DNA of 31,211 nt, from IMG/VR virus record IMGVR_UViG_3300023284_000558, positions 1-31,211 of that record, one strand, 5' to 3'. This stretch comes from a virus. How positions within the stretch are numbered: position 1 is the stretch's first letter; each line of letters opens with the position of its first letter. A program made the translations under genes and the position numbers. The notes under the pieces were generated by a model. It was not told the origin of the DNA and searched no databases. It worked only from the letters and a program-made list of their open reading frames with translations. Positions 6,077 to 24,922 of the stretch are shown in pieces.

Positions 6077-6487
6077 TCAAGCCCTGATTTGCGTTTCTGC
6101 TGAAAGTATTTTGGCGGTCTCTCGGCGACCGTCCGTCGCGTGCATCCCGGTCTTCTGAAAGACCTTGATCAATTCCAGGTGATTGGCCCGGCTGCTGATG
6201 TAGTGCATCTCGACGCCGATGCGGGACGGGTCCGGCTTTTGGCCCGGCCTGGGGATGTGCAGATGTATGCACCCGACGTACATGATGGAATCCTCGTCGA
6301 CGCGGAGATCGGGGTATCGGCCCTTTGGGGGGTGTGGCAGCTCGTAGAGGCCCTCGATCCATCCGTGATCAACGCGCATCCGGTTGGCGAACTCGAAGAC
6401 GGTCTCCTGCCCGGGGTCCCAGTCGGGATTGAAGCAGGGTTCACCGAAGATCGTGAACGGGGCGGGTTGTCCCCTCTCCCTTTCCAT
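6077..6487 (-). CDS. Hypothetical protein (136 aa)
   Basis: ATG at 6487, preceded by an AAAGGG-repeat that also supplies an SD (AAAGGCAA-ATG). The sequence contains FGEPCFNPDWDPGQETVFEF, GLYELPHPPKGRYPDL and IMYVGCIHLHIPRPG. No family was recognised. The first codons lie in the AAAGGG hexamer tract that belongs to the iteron module upstream, so the 5' end may have been created when that module was duplicated. A probable promoter at 6503-6530 would start transcription close to this gene. Confidence 0.6.
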   Translation of the reverse strand: MERERGQPAPFTIFGEPCFNPDWDPGQETVFEFANRMRVDHGWIEGLYELPHPPKGRYPDLRVDEDSIMYVGCIHLHIPRPGQKPDPSRIGVEMHYISSRANHLELIKVFQKTGMHATDGRRETAKILSAETQIRA

Positions 6488-6559
6488 TTGCCTTTCCCTT
6501 TGACTATACCTTTCCCTTTAGGGGTAGCAAGTCCGGACTTGGTCCGGAGTGGGTCCGGA
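6482..6559 (-). repeat. Three TCCGGAC boxes with exact 11-bp spacing, followed by AAAGGG hexamers (module A)
   Basis: On the minus strand TCCGGAC begins at 6559, 6548 and 6537, exactly one helical turn (11 bp) apart. All three match the 7-mer exactly and fall in different codon phases, which argues against protein-level selection. AAAGGG-type hexamers follow at 6482-6520. The same arrangement occurs at 20385-20460 inside the replication initiator gene. Probably protein-binding sites of an origin or control region. Confidence 0.75.
6503..6530 (-). promoter_or_regulatory. Possible sigma70-type promoter (TTGCTA-N16-TATAGT)
   Basis: The -35 TTGCTA (6525-6530) and -10 TATAGT (6503-6508) are 16 bp apart, with the -10 lying about 15 bp before the ATG at 6487. 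The -10 matches 5/6 and the -35 4/6. It lies between the TCCGGAC boxes and the hexamers, so binding at the boxes could control it. Weaker than the three TTGACR promoters in this window. Confidence 0.3.
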
Positions 6560-6749
6560 CATTAGAACCGTCCAACGTCTGAGTCCCAAGCTGTTGCGGC
6601 TGCGCGATGTCAGAACCTGTGCTGATCTCAATAACCAGTTCTCCGCAGATGGTCAGCACCTGCCAGGCATCTGCCGAGCACCTGCTTAGGATCTGATCAG
6701 CAGCTGATTGGATCCTGCCTGGCAGCTGACCAGGATCTCCTGAGATCAT
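6504..6749 (-). CDS. Small protein, diverged partial copy of the replication initiator (81 aa)
   Basis: ATG at 6749 with GAAGGAG seven nt upstream, 41 bp after the minor head gene. It covers module A iterons in full. In the same reading frame as the initiator gene at 20122-20835, ILSRCSADAWQ aligns with FLSSCSAFAEH, and the DNA of the two loci aligns without gaps through 85 bp of spacer at roughly 45-50% identity by eye. The frame ends inside the AAAGGG tract with LPLKGKV, where the initiator continues as a KGKGKG linker. It is therefore probably a remnant or miniature paralogue of the initiator's central region, or a DNA-level copy of an origin that happens to be open. Protein function unknown. 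Confidence 0.5.
   Translation of the reverse strand: MISGDPGQLPGRIQSAADQILSRCSADAWQVLTICGELVIEISTGSDIAQPQQLGTQTLDGSNVRTHSGPSPDLLPLKGKV
6645..6732 (-). repeat. Eight tandem 11-bp iterons (module A)
   Basis: Read on the minus strand, 6732 to 6645 divides into eight consecutive 11-mers of the form NNRGCAGNTGC: TGGTCAGCTGC, CAGGCAGGATC, CAATCAGCTGC, TGATCAGATCC, TAAGCAGGTGC, TCGGCAGATGC, CTGGCAGGTGC and TGACCATCTGC. The period is not a multiple of three, so it is not a codon-level repeat. The array ends exactly 85 bp before the first TCCGGAC box, as in module B. Confidence 0.8.
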
Positions 6750-18594: not shown

Positions 18595-18730
18595 CAATCC
18601 TCCGGATCGAAATCAGGTCCAAGGCCGCCCGCGACACGCAGTAGCGGCAGATCACACTGACCTGCCCCGTCCGGGTCTGCAGACGCGAGACGACCCACCG
18701 ATGCCCGAAACTGTTCGCGCAGGGGATCAC
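18572..18730 (-). CDS. Very small zinc-finger-like protein (52 aa)
   Basis: A GTG at 18730 overlaps the GroES stop (GTGA) and the frame runs to TAA at 18572-18574. The product contains IPCANSFGHRWVVSRL and VICRYCVSRA, giving Cys, His and CxxC spaced as in the small phage zinc-finger type 'C....GH.W......C..C'. It overlaps the following gene start by 23 bp. Coupled translation and the intact Cys/His pattern support it. Confidence 0.5.
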   Translation of the reverse strand: MIPCANSFGHRWVVSRLQTRTGQVSVICRYCVSRAALDLISIRRIDGQRKRT

Positions 18731-19053
18731 GCTTCCGCCTTCAGCGCGTCGGTTTCGTCGCCGCCTTCGATCTTGGCCAGGATGTCCTCGGCCTTCAGGA
18801 CCACGTACTTCTGTCCCGCCAGCTCGACGTCTGTGCCCACGTATGCACTGAAGACGACCGTCTCATCGACGGTCAGCGGCAGGGGTTCAGGCTTCGATCC
18901 GTTCTCCCCCGGCTTGCCCGGCCCCACAGCGATGACCTTCCCTTCGGCCCGTCGCTGCTTCGCGGCATCGGGAAGGAAGATCCCGCCTTTCGTCCGGTCG
19001 GGTTCCTCGGTCCGCTGAACGATGATATTGTCGTAGATCGGTACCAGCCGCAT
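18727..19053 (-). CDS. groES: Phage-encoded GroES/Cpn10 co-chaperonin (108 aa)
   Basis: Starts at ATG 19053 with a strong AAGGAGG; five more upstream residues are possible but lack an SD. It shows the Cpn10 fold: RLVPIYDNIIVQRTEEPDRT at the N-terminus, the mobile loop (15-31) with GGIFLPDAA, whose IFL tripeptide corresponds to the GroEL-binding IVL, then GKVIAVGPG and a final KYVVLKAEDILAK. The roof loop region (49-60) differs from host GroES. T4 gp31 is the known precedent: it caps host GroEL in place of GroES so that the capsid protein folds. No GroEL gene is seen, so the partner is presumably the host chaperonin; the large capsid polyprotein is a likely client (inference). Confidence 0.9.
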   Translation of the reverse strand: MRLVPIYDNIIVQRTEEPDRTKGGIFLPDAAKQRRAEGKVIAVGPGKPGENGSKPEPLPLTVDETVVFSAYVGTDVELAGQKYVVLKAEDILAKIEGGDETDALKAEA

Positions 19054-19075
19054 GTCGACCTCCTTCAATTGAGAA

Positions 19076-19168
19076 TTAAGACTTGAACCAGAGCTTCACC
19101 AACCAGGCGATCAGGATCAGCATCCCGGCCAGGCCGAAGATGTCCCAAAACCAGTCCCGCCACGTCAT
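19076..19168 (-). CDS. Tiny putative transmembrane protein (30 aa)
   Basis: The ATG at 19168 overlaps the RuvC stop (ATGA). The product MTWRDWFWDIFGLAGMLILI is followed by AWLVKLWFKS, one hydrophobic helix with a basic end. A longer form from an upstream ATG inside ruvC is possible. Short and without homologue in my knowledge; coupling and clear membrane character are the only support. Confidence 0.4.
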   Translation of the reverse strand: MTWRDWFWDIFGLAGMLILIAWLVKLWFKS

Positions 19169-19668
19169 TTGGTTTTTCCAGGCCATAGTTTCCCCGTGAT
19201 TTCCAACCAACCAACGCATCCCACAGCGATGGCGTCGCATTCATCTTCGAGCGGCAGCCGGTCCTGAGTGACCAGCTTCTCAGCCGCAGCCCGAACTTCA
19301 TCCTTCGTGGCTTTCCCCGTTCCTGTCAACAGCTTCTTCGCCCGGGCATGTTGGACCCCCAAGACCCTGGCGCAAACACTGGCAGCAGAGATCAACCCGA
19401 CTCCCCGCGCAGCGCCGATGACCAATGCGGTTTGAGGGTTGGATTTCTCCCCCCTCCTGACGAAAACCTTTTCCAGCACGACGTGCGTCGGCTGCCACTT
19501 TTGGAGTACTCCGGCCACGATCATCAGCAGCTGCCACAGACGGTTGTGCAGTTCCCCCTTGCTGTCGACTTCTGCCAAGCTGGTGATGATCTTCTTTCCA
19601 TCCAGCCGGGCCAGGCCGAACTTGATTGAACCGGGGTCCATGCTGACGATCACGGGTTTCTTGCTCAT
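19165..19668 (-). CDS. ruvC: RuvC-like Holliday junction resolvase (167 aa)
   Basis: The start at 19668 overlaps the preceding stop (ATGA). The RNase H-fold signature is complete: D11 in IVSMDPGSIKFGLARL, E66 in THVVLEKVFV, and the C-terminal acidic cluster E141, D142 and D145 in LEDECDAIAVG. The central region has NPQTALVIGAARGVGLISAA, the RuvC-like glycine/alanine helix. Length matches bacterial RuvC (~170). Phage resolvases cut branched DNA before packaging or during recombination. It is coupled to replication genes upstream. Confidence 0.85.
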   Translation of the reverse strand: MSKKPVIVSMDPGSIKFGLARLDGKKIITSLAEVDSKGELHNRLWQLLMIVAGVLQKWQPTHVVLEKVFVRRGEKSNPQTALVIGAARGVGLISAASVCARVLGVQHARAKKLLTGTGKATKDEVRAAAEKLVTQDRLPLEDECDAIAVGCVGWLEITGKLWPGKTK

Positions 19669-20120
19669 CCTTTGTTCTCCCTCTTCTGTTCGGCGTCGCG
19701 TCTCTCGAGGTCCCGGACCACCTGGCGATGAAAAGAACTCTTCGTCTTGCGGGCCAGCGCGCGCGCTTTCTGTAGTTGGGTCTTTGACCAGTCCATCGAC
19801 CGCTCCCGCTCCTCGGCTCTCTGTTGATTGCGTTCCTTGGCCCGGACGATGGACGCGTTGAGCGGTCCCCCGAACGGTTCGTCCTGGATCTGCTGACGGG
19901 CCTTCAGGATGGCGTTGAGGAAATCGTTCAAGGTGAGAAAGGGGAGGGGCTTCTCTCCCCGGCTCACGTTCAGACACGCCCGCTTCCACACCACAGGGTC
20001 ATCCCCCTTGATGTAAGGCCAGAGCGACTTGTCCCGCAGAGCTTCGGACATCGAGGCGTTCAGCCCGGCTTCCACGATGTCGATGCCGTCCAGGAATTCG
20101 TCCTTGGTCATGTCGGCCAT
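19665..20120 (-). CDS. Hypothetical replication-associated protein (151 aa)
   Basis: ATG at 20120 with TAGGAGA upstream, next to the replication initiator-like gene. The N-terminal ~90 residues, with MTKDEFLDGIDIVEAGLNAS, LRDKSLWPYIKGDDPVVWKR and LPFLTLNDFLNAILKARQQI, are helical and could be a small adaptor domain. The C-terminal 60 residues are very charged (RAKERNQQRAEERERSMDW). Its place just after the initiator and before RuvC is where a helicase loader would sit, but no Walker motif is present. No family recognised. Confidence 0.6.
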   Translation of the reverse strand: MADMTKDEFLDGIDIVEAGLNASMSEALRDKSLWPYIKGDDPVVWKRACLNVSRGEKPLPFLTLNDFLNAILKARQQIQDEPFGGPLNASIVRAKERNQQRAEERERSMDWSKTQLQKARALARKTKSSFHRQVVRDLERRDAEQKRENKG

Positions 20121-20121
20121 G

Positions 20122-20835
20122 CTAATCTCCTAGCGCGTCGCGCTTCTCCTTTCGGGACTGTTTCGTCTTCGACTTCCCGCCGAAGGCATTGTCGTCAAGC
20201 CACAGCACCGACCGGCCTTTGGCCTGTGCAGACGTCAGCACTTCTTTGACGGCGTCGAAGCCCAGTCGGGCCACCCAGGCTTCCACGTACGTCCGGTTCG
20301 TATTCGTCCGGCCTGGAATCTTTGCGGCCTTCACCAGCCGCATCAGCTCCTCGATTCGGATCATGTCGTCGGGGGAGTCGCCCCCCTCTCCCTTTCCTTT
20401 TCCCTTTCCCTTTCCCTTTGTGGGCACCGAGGTCCGGACTTGCGCCGGACCCAGTCCGGACTTGCGGGTGTAATCATCCTTGATCTTCAGGATGTTAGGG
20501 CAGTCCAACCTCAGGAAGTCCTCCGATTCCGTGAACGTGATCTTAGCAGATTCCGGGTAGATGCTCTGCAGGTGCTCAGCAAATGCTGAGCAGCTGCTGA
20601 GGAACTCCCGAGCAACTGCCCGCTTGGTGCGCAGCTTTTTGGCGACGTCGGCCCAGGTACAGCCGACGGCCCAGCTGATTTCGACGCCTTCGTCGTTGAC
20701 GATGGGTTTTCCGCGTCCGGCGATCAGTTCGATCAAGGACCAGTACCAGCCGAGACCCCGCATCCCCCACTTCCGGATGACATATTGCAGGAAGGGGTCC
20801 TGGTCGGCGTCGGTCATGTGCTTGAAGTATCGCAT
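20122..20835 (-). CDS. Replication initiator-like protein (237 aa) carrying a putative origin
   Basis: ATG at 20835 with AGAGGG close upstream. The N-terminal ~120 residues (MRYFKHMTDADQDPFLQYVI, then KWGMRGLGWYWSLIELIAG) match the N-terminal winged-helix type of phage replication proteins (DUF4373/Lin1244-like: 'F.HD......YG..GYGIYW.LIE'). A lysine/glycine linker encoded by AAAGGG hexamers separates it from a C-terminal region (NRTYVEAWVARLGFDAVKEV) that probably binds partners. The coding sequence itself contains an iteron module (20385-20622), like lambda O, which carries ori within its gene. This supports an initiator that binds sites in its own gene. Confidence 0.65.
   Translation of the reverse strand: MRYFKHMTDADQDPFLQYVIRKWGMRGLGWYWSLIELIAGRGKPIVNDEGVEISWAVGCTWADVAKKLRTKRAVAREFLSSCSAFAEHLQSIYPESAKITFTESEDFLRLDCPNILKIKDDYTRKSGLGPAQVRTSVPTKGKGKGKGKGEGGDSPDDMIRIEELMRLVKAAKIPGRTNTNRTYVEAWVARLGFDAVKEVLTSAQAKGRSVLWLDDNAFGGKSKTKQSRKEKRDALGD
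20385..20460 (-). repeat. Three TCCGGAC-type boxes with exact 11-bp spacing, followed by AAAGGG hexamers (module B)
   Basis: On the minus strand TCCGGAC begins at 20460 and 20438, with TCCGGCG at 20449, all 11 bp apart. The gap to the iterons upstream is exactly 85 bp. AAAGGG hexamers follow at 20385-20420 and encode the GKGKGK linker. The 11-bp period runs across codon phases. Module A at 6482-6559 has the same layout. Confidence 0.75.
20546..20622 (-). repeat. Seven tandem 11-bp iterons (module B)
   Basis: Read on the minus strand: CGGGCAGTTGC, TCGGGAGTTCC, TCAGCAGCTGC, TCAGCATTTGC, TGAGCACCTGC, AGAGCATCTAC, CCGGAATCTGC. The consensus NNRGCANNTGC is the same as in module A. Lies inside the initiator gene, where an 11-bp period is not explained by codons. 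Confidence 0.8.
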
Positions 20836-20877
20836 CAACCCTCTCTCAGATGTTGCGGGCGTCCGCTCTCTCCTGAA

Positions 20878-21252: not shown

Positions 21253-22806
21253 CTACTTCTTCCCCTTCCCCTTCTTCCCCTTCTTCTTTGCGGCCTTGGC
21301 CTTTCGTGCCGCCAGCGCCTTCCTCTTCTCGACGGCCAGCATCTTCTTCACCTGATGCCGGACCTTCGGCCAGGAGATTTTGTACCGCTTGGCGGCGATC
21401 TTCACGGCATCCGATCCACCGCCCGGGTGGTTGATCTCCGGGATCAGGTAGATCGACTGCATGAATTGGACGACCTGGTCGACCGAACGCATCTCGGCCA
21501 GCTTCTTCCCGGCGGTCTTGGTCGACGTGTCGGCCCATCCGAGGAACTTCACGATGTACCGCTTGGAGTCATTCCAGATTCGGTCGTAGCACTTGATGGC
21601 CAGCTGCCGCCAGTCCTCCAGCGGCATCGAGGTCTTGCCCTTGTTGATGGCAGCCTTGACGATCCACGTGCGGGTGGCTTCCTCCACCTGCTTCTCTTCC
21701 CGTTCCTTGTGGGCCTTCTCCCGCTGGGCCTTCGACGGCTTCTTCGTGCCCGACGCGGTCTTGGGGTGATGCTCGACGCACTGCTGCCCCTTCGTGCAGA
21801 CGGTAATCACGGTGCCGATCTTGGGGCCGTCGACGTAGATCCCCTGCGCGATGTTCTTGCACTTCTTCCGCCCGGCCTTCTCGTATGTGTTGGTGTTGAG
21901 GATGGCATTGTTCGTGCCGTACCAGTCCTTTGAAATCAGAACCGCCGGCACCTTCTTCTTCAGCAGCTCCTTCCTCTTGCGCAGGATCTCAGCGTCGATC
22001 TTCTTCTCGTAGCAGGGACGGTCGAGGCATGTGTCAGGCTTCGCCCCGACCGGAAGAGAGGGCTGATTCCCGGCCCGCTTCGGGCACATCGTGCAGGAAC
22101 CCGCCGACCGAACGAGTGTCTCGCTTGTCGGGTTGAACGGCGCCGCCTTCGTGGAGCAATACACCGCCCGCTGAATCCACTTCCCGAGGGCGGAAACGGA
22201 CATGCTGCTCTCGAACCGACCAGCCGCTTCGCTCATCCCCACGGTGAACCGACACGCATCCAGCGCCTTCTTCTGCATCGGTCCGGTCAATCGCGCAATC
22301 ATGACAGCGTGACCGGCTTCGATGCTGCCGTTTCGCAGTGCCGTCTTCGCCGGTTCGATCAACGACCCCAGCTTCAACCGGGACCAGACGTATCCCTTTT
22401 TCATGCCGATCTTTTCACCGATCTGTACGGCGCTCAGCTTCGAGTGCTTCATCAGCAGCCGGAAGCTGTCGGCTTCTTCGAGGGGGCCGATGTCTTCACG
22501 CTGCAGGTTCTCGATGATCTGCACTTCACGGGCCTGTTCGTCCGTCAGCGTGACGACGTTCACCGGGACCGACGTCAGCTTCGCCAGCTTCGCCGCCCGG
22601 TACCGGCGCGCACCGGCGACGATCTCCATCTTGCCGTTCTTGGGGCGAACGACCAAGGCCTGCTGGATGCCAAGCTGCCGGATGGATTCAGCCAGCTCGG
22701 CCAGCTTCACGGCGTCGAACGCGCCCCGCGGATTGTAGGACGACTCGGTCAGTTTGCCGATGTCGATGTCTTGGAACTTCCCCTTCGGGATCGTTTCGGT
22801 CTTCAT
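21253..22806 (-). CDS. parB: ParB-like partition/CTPase DNA-binding protein (517 aa)
   Basis: The start at 22806 overlaps the preceding stop (ATGA) with AAAGGAAAG upstream. The ParB/Srx-type CTP domain has IDIGKLTESSYNPRG, LAESIRQLGIQQALVVRP and GARRYRA (65-71), and the second box IIENLQREDIGPLEEADSF (97-115). A KorB-type helix-turn-helix follows (KLSAVQIGEKIGMKKGYVWS, 123-142). Further on, C238, C241, C260 and C265 may bind zinc, a feature of some phage/plasmid ParB-like proteins, and the end is lysine-rich. The length (517) is larger than chromosomal ParB (~280-330). ParB slides from parS as a CTP-bound clamp; a perfect parS is present at 26763-26778. No ParA is seen. Confidence 0.85.
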   Translation of the reverse strand: MKTETIPKGKFQDIDIGKLTESSYNPRGAFDAVKLAELAESIRQLGIQQALVVRPKNGKMEIVAGARRYRAAKLAKLTSVPVNVVTLTDEQAREVQIIENLQREDIGPLEEADSFRLLMKHSKLSAVQIGEKIGMKKGYVWSRLKLGSLIEPAKTALRNGSIEAGHAVMIARLTGPMQKKALDACRFTVGMSEAAGRFESSMSVSALGKWIQRAVYCSTKAAPFNPTSETLVRSAGSCTMCPKRAGNQPSLPVGAKPDTCLDRPCYEKKIDAEILRKRKELLKKKVPAVLISKDWYGTNNAILNTNTYEKAGRKKCKNIAQGIYVDGPKIGTVITVCTKGQQCVEHHPKTASGTKKPSKAQREKAHKEREEKQVEEATRTWIVKAAINKGKTSMPLEDWRQLAIKCYDRIWNDSKRYIVKFLGWADTSTKTAGKKLAEMRSVDQVVQFMQSIYLIPEINHPGGGSDAVKIAAKRYKISWPKVRHQVKKMLAVEKRKALAARKAKAAKKKGKKGKGKK

Positions 22807-23054
22807 GTCTTCTTTCCTTTCTTGAAGTCGCCCGCCTTCGGGCAGGTAACAAAATGGGGCAGGTGAGCTTCGACGATGTTGGTTTGGGGCGGCTCGATCG
22901 TGATGCTGGCATCCGTATAGACCTTGTAATCCTTTCCGGGCGACTGCATCACTCGGCACGTCTTGGCGTCGAACGGCTCTGCCTTCCCGTTCTCGTTCTT
23001 GACCCAAATGATCTGCGTATCGCAGCCCCGGCAGTTGGCTTTACGATTTGCCAC
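22803..23054 (-). CDS. Zinc-binding conserved phage protein (83 aa)
   Basis: GTG at 23054, with AAGGGAG upstream and a 14-nt overlap with the preceding gene. It has CRGCDTQIIWVKNENGKAEP with a following FDAKTCRV and a C-terminal HFVTCPKAGDFKK. This matches a common phage family of zinc-ribbon proteins with 'C..C...I.W.....GK..P.....H...CP.A..FR'. Role not known; found mostly near recombination genes. Coupled to ParB downstream. Confidence 0.65.
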   Translation of the reverse strand: MANRKANCRGCDTQIIWVKNENGKAEPFDAKTCRVMQSPGKDYKVYTDASITIEPPQTNIVEAHLPHFVTCPKAGDFKKGKKT

Positions 23055-23385: not shown

Positions 23386-23407
23386 GGTTCTCTCCTTAAC
23401 AATGAGG

Positions 23408-23666
23408 CTCTGTAACCAGCGGAACAGTAGCGGCCACGTAAACCGTCCGGACGGCTGGCACTTGCCTGCACCTTTCTATCGCACCGGTTGGTGCAGGAGC
23501 CGCGAGGCGTACCATGCGAGGTGCATCTCGACCGACCTCAGACCTTTCGGTCCTACTGTTCCGCTTGTCACAGAATCGGACCCATCATGCGACGGCAGAC
23601 CTTGAAAGGAGGGTAGCACCACGATGGTAGGGTGCTCTGCCGCCGCATGGCGGGTCCGGACCCGCC
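23408..23666 (-). ncRNA. Highly structured intergenic region, candidate RNA element
   Basis: There is no convincing gene between 23386 and 23671; a 58-codon minus-strand frame from 23648 has no SD. Four structures can be drawn on the minus strand. A palindrome at 23649-23666 gives a 7-bp stem with CCGG loop. A nested stem-loop follows (23589-23598 with 23637-23646, inner 23615-23620 with 23631-23636). A 23-bp terminal stem pairs 23553-23575 with 23408-23430 with one mismatch and two G-U pairs. Inside it are a hairpin with a GAAA tetraloop (23541-23553), a CCTGCACC/GGTGCAGG stem (23465-23472 with 23490-23497) and a self-complementary CCGTCCGGACGG (23443-23454). It could be a phage ncRNA, a leader regulator of the downstream genes, or a small element with terminal inverted repeats. 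Confidence 0.5.
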
Positions 23667-23671
23667 TAAGA

Positions 23672-24340: not shown

Positions 24341-24922
24341 TTAATCCTCCAATCGGTAGTCAGATTTCCAGTTCGTGATCGACGTCGCGCAGATGAAGAT
24401 CCGGAAGTCGTTGAGATCGCGGCATGGCTTCAGCCGGAAGTCGCCGTCGTCCTTTAGGTAGAGACTCCATCGCGCCAACGCATACGAGTTACGCAAGCAA
24501 AGAGCATACCCGGCCAGCTGAATCTGATGCCAGGGTTCCGGCTGACCGCACTTGATGTCCAGGACGCCGCGTCGTTTCCGGATGCGGCCGAGACGGTCCA
24601 GAGTCCCGCAGAAGCGGTATTGGGTGTTAGAGACGCGCTTCTCGATTCCTTCGGCCTCGATCTTGAAACTCGACTCTGCTCTGAACCGTCTCCAGCCGGT
24701 GAGATACGGCATGATGCGGTCGTCGACGGTCGATTCGTCGAGGTCGCCCAGGTCGTCCAAGGCGGTGACCAGGTGAACGGCCCGGCCCCGCTCGAAGTAC
24801 CAGTCGTCCGGCATCCAATCCAACTGCAGCCCGCCGGCCTTGATGATCTTCGTCACGCCGGGAACCTTGTTCCCGTTCAGACGGTACTGCCGCGTCACCG
24901 GATCCATTTCGATTTGGTTCAT
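24341..24922 (-). CDS. PD-(D/E)XK exonuclease, RecE/Cas4-like (193 aa)
   Basis: The expected active site is visible: H50 (RGRAVH), D109 (CGTLDRLGR), D122 and K124 in GVLDIKCG, and Q135/Y139 in HQIQLAGYALCLR. This order matches the RecB/RecE/Cas4-like nuclease fold. Phage versions resect double-strand ends to 3' overhangs for single-strand annealing recombination. The start overlaps the upstream conserved phage gene by 4 nt, so they are coupled. I see no four-cysteine Fe-S cluster pattern of true Cas4. Length is at the lower end of the family. Confidence 0.8.
   Translation of the reverse strand: MNQIEMDPVTRQYRLNGNKVPGVTKIIKAGGLQLDWMPDDWYFERGRAVHLVTALDDLGDLDESTVDDRIMPYLTGWRRFRAESSFKIEAEGIEKRVSNTQYRFCGTLDRLGRIRKRRGVLDIKCGQPEPWHQIQLAGYALCLRNSYALARWSLYLKDDGDFRLKPCRDLNDFRIFICATSITNWKSDYRLED

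Follow-up and report, generated by a model that had tools for sequence, protein, structure and literature searches.

Within a 31,211-nucleotide stretch of DNA from an uncultured tailed phage (IMG/VR record IMGVR_UViG_3300023284_000558, hereafter the window), two similarly organised arrays of short direct repeats are found, one in the head operon (module A, 6482-6732) and the other inside a gene resembling a replication initiator (module B, 20385-20622). The question raised by this locus is what each array does, and why the phage should carry both. An earlier note on this DNA took the pair for two copies of a replication origin or of a site bound by the initiator, and listed packaging, recombination and autoregulation as alternatives for module A. 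Below, we examine the layout of the two modules, the gene that surrounds module B, the descent of module A and the roles that module A could have.

Layout and statistical support of the two modules

Modules A and B share a common layout on the minus strand and can be aligned gap-free on one diagonal, at an offset of 13,901 bp. In this layout a set of 11-bp iterons comes first; after an 85-bp gap there are three TCCGGAC-type boxes, spaced at 11 bp, and finally an AAAGGG or purine tract. In module A, re-reading of the sequence together with array and box scoring places eight 11-bp iteron units at 6645..6732 (-) and three perfect TCCGGAC boxes at 6531..6559 (-), starting at 6559, 6548 and 6537, with the 85-bp spacer between them at 6560..6644 (-). 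Module B contains seven 11-bp units of the form NNRGCANNTGC (20546..20622, minus strand), a spacer at 20461..20545 (-) and three boxes at 20432..20460 (-), which start at 20460, 20449 and 20438 and of which the middle one reads TCCGGCG. The distance from the last iteron to the first box is exactly 85 bp in both modules (6644-6560 in A, 20545-20461 in B), as the earlier note had stated, and its description of three boxes at 11 bp followed by AAAGGG is likewise confirmed by re-reading; the hexamers begin 18 bp (module A) or 19 bp (module B) from the start of the third box. Its counts of eight and seven iterons hold only when degenerate units are included, since perfect GCANNTGC iterons number just three in module A and four in module B.

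Each module ends in a candidate unwinding element. The AAAGGG/AT tract of module A (6481..6520, minus strand) ranks as the 4th least stable non-overlapping 40-bp window of the stretch. A purine-run scan identified the (AAAGGG)n tract of module B (20381..20419, minus strand), a candidate unwinding or helicase-entry site, as the longest purine run in the window (39 nt); in the stability ranking this tract is at the 94th percentile and the B spacer at the 99.5th; the melting element is the weaker one for B. Module A is intergenic and lies in the head operon, as the earlier note had placed it, in a 303-bp gap between a head-morphogenesis gene (PHROG 2468) and a 136-aa ORF. This gap is among the three largest of the window. 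The start codon of the 136-aa ORF (6487) falls inside the last purine hexamers of module A, whose purine tract may double as the ribosome-binding site of this ORF.

Arrays were scored as seven consecutive units at each tested period, with 100 Markov genomes as the null. At 11 bp, modules B and A score higher than any other site in the window (45 and 43, compared with 26-32 in the Markov genomes), while no other period exceeds 32 except period 22, which reaches 37 and reflects the same array. The box score of module A is 21, whereas the null does not go beyond 16. The iterons and boxes of module B fall in all three codon phases in turn, consistent with the earlier observation that the boxes occupy different phases. 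Synonymous-codon shuffling of the initiator gene (2 x 2,000 shuffles), which the earlier note had proposed as a check, separates the two parts of module B: the iteron score of 45 was never reached (maximum 41), whereas the box score of 19 was matched in 9 and 14 of 2,000 shuffles (about 0.5-0.7%), so that the B boxes alone are just moderately unusual. GC skew, another of the proposed checks, shows no turn at module A or module B.

Module B and its counterparts in other initiator genes

Module B lies in a gene of about 237 aa (20122..20838, minus strand) with a DUF4373/Lin1244_N-like N-domain. Assignment of this gene as a replication initiator draws on protein families, gene order in relatives and structure prediction, and agrees with the initiator-like gene of the earlier note. 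It matches PHROG 2562 (replication initiation, 2.5e-6) and, below the gathering score of 25, Pfam PF14297 (E 5e-4, 21.3 bits); tblastn and profile matches link it to DUF4373 phages, and in annotated phages the gene for a helicase loader or replicative helicase comes immediately after the homologous gene. The AlphaFold (AF2) model contains a confident winged-helix N-domain, which best matches the N-domains of RepA_N plasmid initiators (VIA Z 8.0 to 4pql over 93 residues) in a near tie with CRP-type winged helices at 7.8; a Foldseek search returned no significant match. In the open-access literature, we found no description of DUF4373 as a replication initiator. The window also encodes a large ParB-like protein (21253-22938) that combines ParB_N and HTH domains with a K-rich tail. 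This protein was considered as the binder of the repeated words and set aside, as nothing ties it to them and the words sit inside the initiator genes of other phages.

To place module B among related genes, we used 72 distinct DUF4373-type initiator relatives, chosen by protein alone. The same palindromic hexamer is repeated exactly 11 bp apart in 37 of these 72 genes (synonymous-shuffle mean 3.6, maximum 8), mostly as TCATGA and near nucleotide 350, and among the spacings 11 alone stands out. In the initiator gene of the window as well, palindromic boxes recur every 11 bp downstream of the part encoding the N-domain. The DUF4373-type phages Pseudoalteromonas BS5 and Pq0, Vibrio XM1 and Pantoea PdC23 resemble the window in having such 11-bp-spaced boxes, which lie, together with purine-rich RGATA repeats, where the N-domain of the initiator ends, but they use a different word (TCATGA) and have a single array per genome. 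Closer in wording are prophage relatives in bacterial genomes, also chosen by protein, where TCCGGAC/TCCGGAG boxes spaced 11 bp from one another follow the N-domain in L339, L340, L342 and L343, and TCCCGAC boxes occur at the corresponding place in L346. The TCCGGAC-type boxes of module B recur at the same place in L027, L031, L339, L340 and L342, and L027 shares with the window an upstream 11-bp array in addition to the boxes.

A search that started from DNA led to the same type of gene. Three GCANNTGC words at 11 bp were found at 72 loci in a blind search, and 24 of the 30 overlapping ORFs scanned at such loci were replication initiation, primosomal or DnaD-like proteins belonging to several families. 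A pattern search for TCCGG boxes pointed to initiator genes at 9 of 24 loci (L030 and L032 are near-identical). The open-access literature yielded no description of this 11-bp palindromic rule. Separately, GCAAATGC 11-bp arrays that overlap no ORF of notable length, and are apparently intergenic, were seen in L043, L057, L060, L061, L092 and others.

Because of its position, the family of the surrounding protein and this comparative evidence (11-bp repeats within relatives' genes, TCCGGAC boxes and the blind search), module B is almost certainly the replication origin of the phage, located inside its own initiator gene. Phage lambda offers a familiar parallel, in that its ori lies in the initiator gene O and there unites iterons with a purine-asymmetric melting region. 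This comparison, drawn in the earlier note, is apt for module B alone; lambda has a single origin, its iterons measure about 18-20 bp rather than 11 bp and its initiator is of another family; for the pair of modules, oriL and oriR of phage SPP1 are the better precedent. The oriL of phage P1 is, like module B, a lytic origin within an initiator gene, in this case repL, where synonymous changes reduce replication (PMC9948254). It differs in being an A/T-rich element and not a set of 11-bp iteron arrays, and a homologous second copy has not been described.

Descent and rarity of module A

When the two modules are compared in register, 49/88 positions of the iterons and 23/29 of the boxes are identical. 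The spacer, which has no obvious motif, is identical at 38/85 positions where 21.7 are expected (P about 1e-4). In the flanks, identity drops to chance or close to it (22/82 and 29/88), and the homology stops at the module ends. Since the spacers match in register and the flanks do not, module A is, judged from this alignment, an old duplicate of B, a copy of about 250 bp. The identity between A and B lacks codon-position bias and module A contains three stops in the frame of B; it therefore appears to have been kept for its DNA and not as a coding relic.

A second copy of this kind is rare among the genomes compared. We searched for distant copies using each genome's own array as the matrix. 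The distant copy in the window scores 31.0 for the iterons and 32.2 for the boxes, against nulls of up to 14.1 and 15.6, respectively, and no comparable distant array was found in the 20 other genomes tested in this way (the PdC23 seed was uninformative). The best among these 20, in the L027 genome, scores 19.0 of 41.0, marginally above a small null of 6 simulations. Strict patterns applied to about 90 records, many of them fragments, gave no second copy among the matches listed. Searches of viral_contigs with the initiator, terminase and capsid proteins found no close relatives, blastn of module A against phages gave nothing real, and the head operons of capsid relatives contain no TCCGGAC/GCANNTGC array. 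Possible second arrays in G003 and G019 were discarded, as they are not in recognised initiator genes and the one in G003 is near the null. The earlier note had looked to related genomes for conservation of the array and its spacing, and here expectation and result diverge: the relatives keep the single in-gene origin, but neither a second copy nor the 85-bp gap. One capsid relative (L256:6250-6310) has in its head operon an intergenic 11-bp array (GGAGGGTGTTT) along with 10-bp GGGTTNCTT repeats, possibly an independent late origin.

Possible roles of module A and the precedent of SPP1

The reading that we favour, with a probability of roughly two in three, is that module B is an in-gene origin and module A an old duplicate of it that acts as a late second origin or as an initiator-bound fork barrier. 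The duplicated origin or initiator-binding site of the earlier note is thus the best supported of its proposals, given the A-B homology in register, the whole anatomy of the module in A and the origin-like character of B. The homology, the spacing, the in-gene arrays shared by initiator genes and the rarity of a second copy among the genomes compared are observations; that the initiator binds these sites, that they are active as origins and that module A, probably a second late origin or a fork barrier, works late is what we infer. Mechanistically, the initiator with its winged-helix N-domain would occupy one face of the helix, on palindromic iterons and boxes that recur every 11 bp, melt the adjoining purine or low-stability tract, and recruit the helicase loader. 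A copy of the origin would have moved into the intergenic gap of the head operon, where just the binding sites, the spacing and the unwinding tract were kept. Like oriR of SPP1, module A would most likely serve either as a late initiator-bound origin or as a fork barrier that promotes the passage from theta to recombination-dependent concatemer replication.

In SPP1, gene 38 contains oriL, oriR is found 12-13 kb away in an intergenic stretch of the late region, and gp38 binds both (PMC6316719, PMC3485210). In the scheme proposed for this phage, forks are halted by gp38 on oriR, and a Holliday-junction resolvase and an exonuclease set replication going again in the direction of concatemers (PMC6316719, PMC3485210), though a theta-to-sigma switch at the second origin is a model in SPP1 too (PMC3485210). 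In phage ICP1, too, a further origin seems to come into use late in infection (PMC7145576). Judged from its published description, the SPP1 pair is the closest known arrangement to modules A and B. Both phages have one origin-like array in the initiator gene and a further module of similar organisation far from it, in an intergenic part of the late region, at a spacing here of 13.9 kb on a linear fragment, from which the true map distance may differ. Both modules consist of direct repeats and an easily melted region (weaker for B), and the window encodes the same two recombination functions: a RuvC-type Holliday junction resolvase two genes downstream of the initiator (19165..19734, minus strand; Pfam RuvC 7.9e-15) and an exonuclease-like gene in the recombination module (24341..24922, minus strand; PHROG 298, 1.8e-14). 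Set beside SPP1, the window has a probably DUF4373-type initiator, is GC-rich and combines two iteron words across an 85-bp gap; its module A lies in the head operon, and its initiator binding and origin activity are predicted. A GroES co-chaperonin is also phage-encoded (18727-19068; Cpn10 E 2e-26).

The main rival, which we regard as unlikely, is that module A, instead of being an origin, serves copy control or titrates the initiator, comparable to the incA iterons of plasmid P1: it would bind initiator, pair with B by handcuffing and limit its firing. This would fit the iterons and boxes that A has in common with B in the same orientation, as well as the existence of a third region with isolated GTCCGGAC sites. 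That region, a third large gap at 23386-23671, holds 2/6 of the window's GTCCGGAC octamers, the other four being in A and B; about 0.9 are expected in the whole window, and the chance of two in this gap is about 4e-5. Word scanning places one octamer at 23445..23452, 6 bp from a GCANNTGC word, and the other at 23654..23661, in an 18-bp perfect palindrome also seen in the gap/palindrome scan; such a site is possibly an initiator operator. However, module A retains the 85-bp gap and low-stability tract, beyond what titration needs, and by our own reasoning a lytic-type burst would gain little from copy control. We found nothing that speaks for the autoregulation raised in the earlier note, although it, or copy control, may apply.

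A role in transcription, with the initiator or another regulator timing late expression of the head operon from module A, is improbable. The module is intergenic and precedes the 136-aa ORF, and there is one weak sigma-70-like match at 6530-6503 (-), between the boxes and the hexamers, but this match is 9/12 and may be chance, and operators rarely need eight iterons, a second array at 85 bp and an unwinding tract. Packaging (pac/cos) or recombination, for which we found no positive support, is a very doubtful role. Some pac sites do use repeats and module A is in the head operon, yet it lies about 3-5 kb from the terminase genes, is homologous to an in-gene initiator array and is made of words that occur in other phages' initiator genes. 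Finally, homology of A to part of the initiator gene and a B box score that about 0.5-0.7% of codon shuffles reach could suggest that neither module is functional, B being a coding-sequence quirk and A a decayed copy, but this deserves hardly any weight given that shuffles never attain the iteron score, that the boxes of A are more perfect than those of B and that codon positions 1 and 2 are not favoured among the identical positions of A.

The favoured reading, a late second origin or fork barrier derived from an in-gene origin, has implications beyond this phage. How a second origin helps the shift from circle-to-circle replication to concatemers is known largely from SPP1, the Bacillus phage in which the paired layout is so far best known. 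A second phage with a non-coding origin copy beside the in-gene copy provides a natural comparison, in which positions that have drifted in A would be dispensable and those kept in register are probably required. For locating origins in many uncultured phages, the 11-bp palindromic rule, which we checked on 72 initiator genes, offers a simple computational handle. More tentatively, initiator genes of several unrelated phage families may share a codon-embedded, one-face 11-bp palindromic iteron code, a two-word version of which was duplicated here into the late region independently of SPP1; if so, paired theta-to-concatemer origins would therefore evolve repeatedly.
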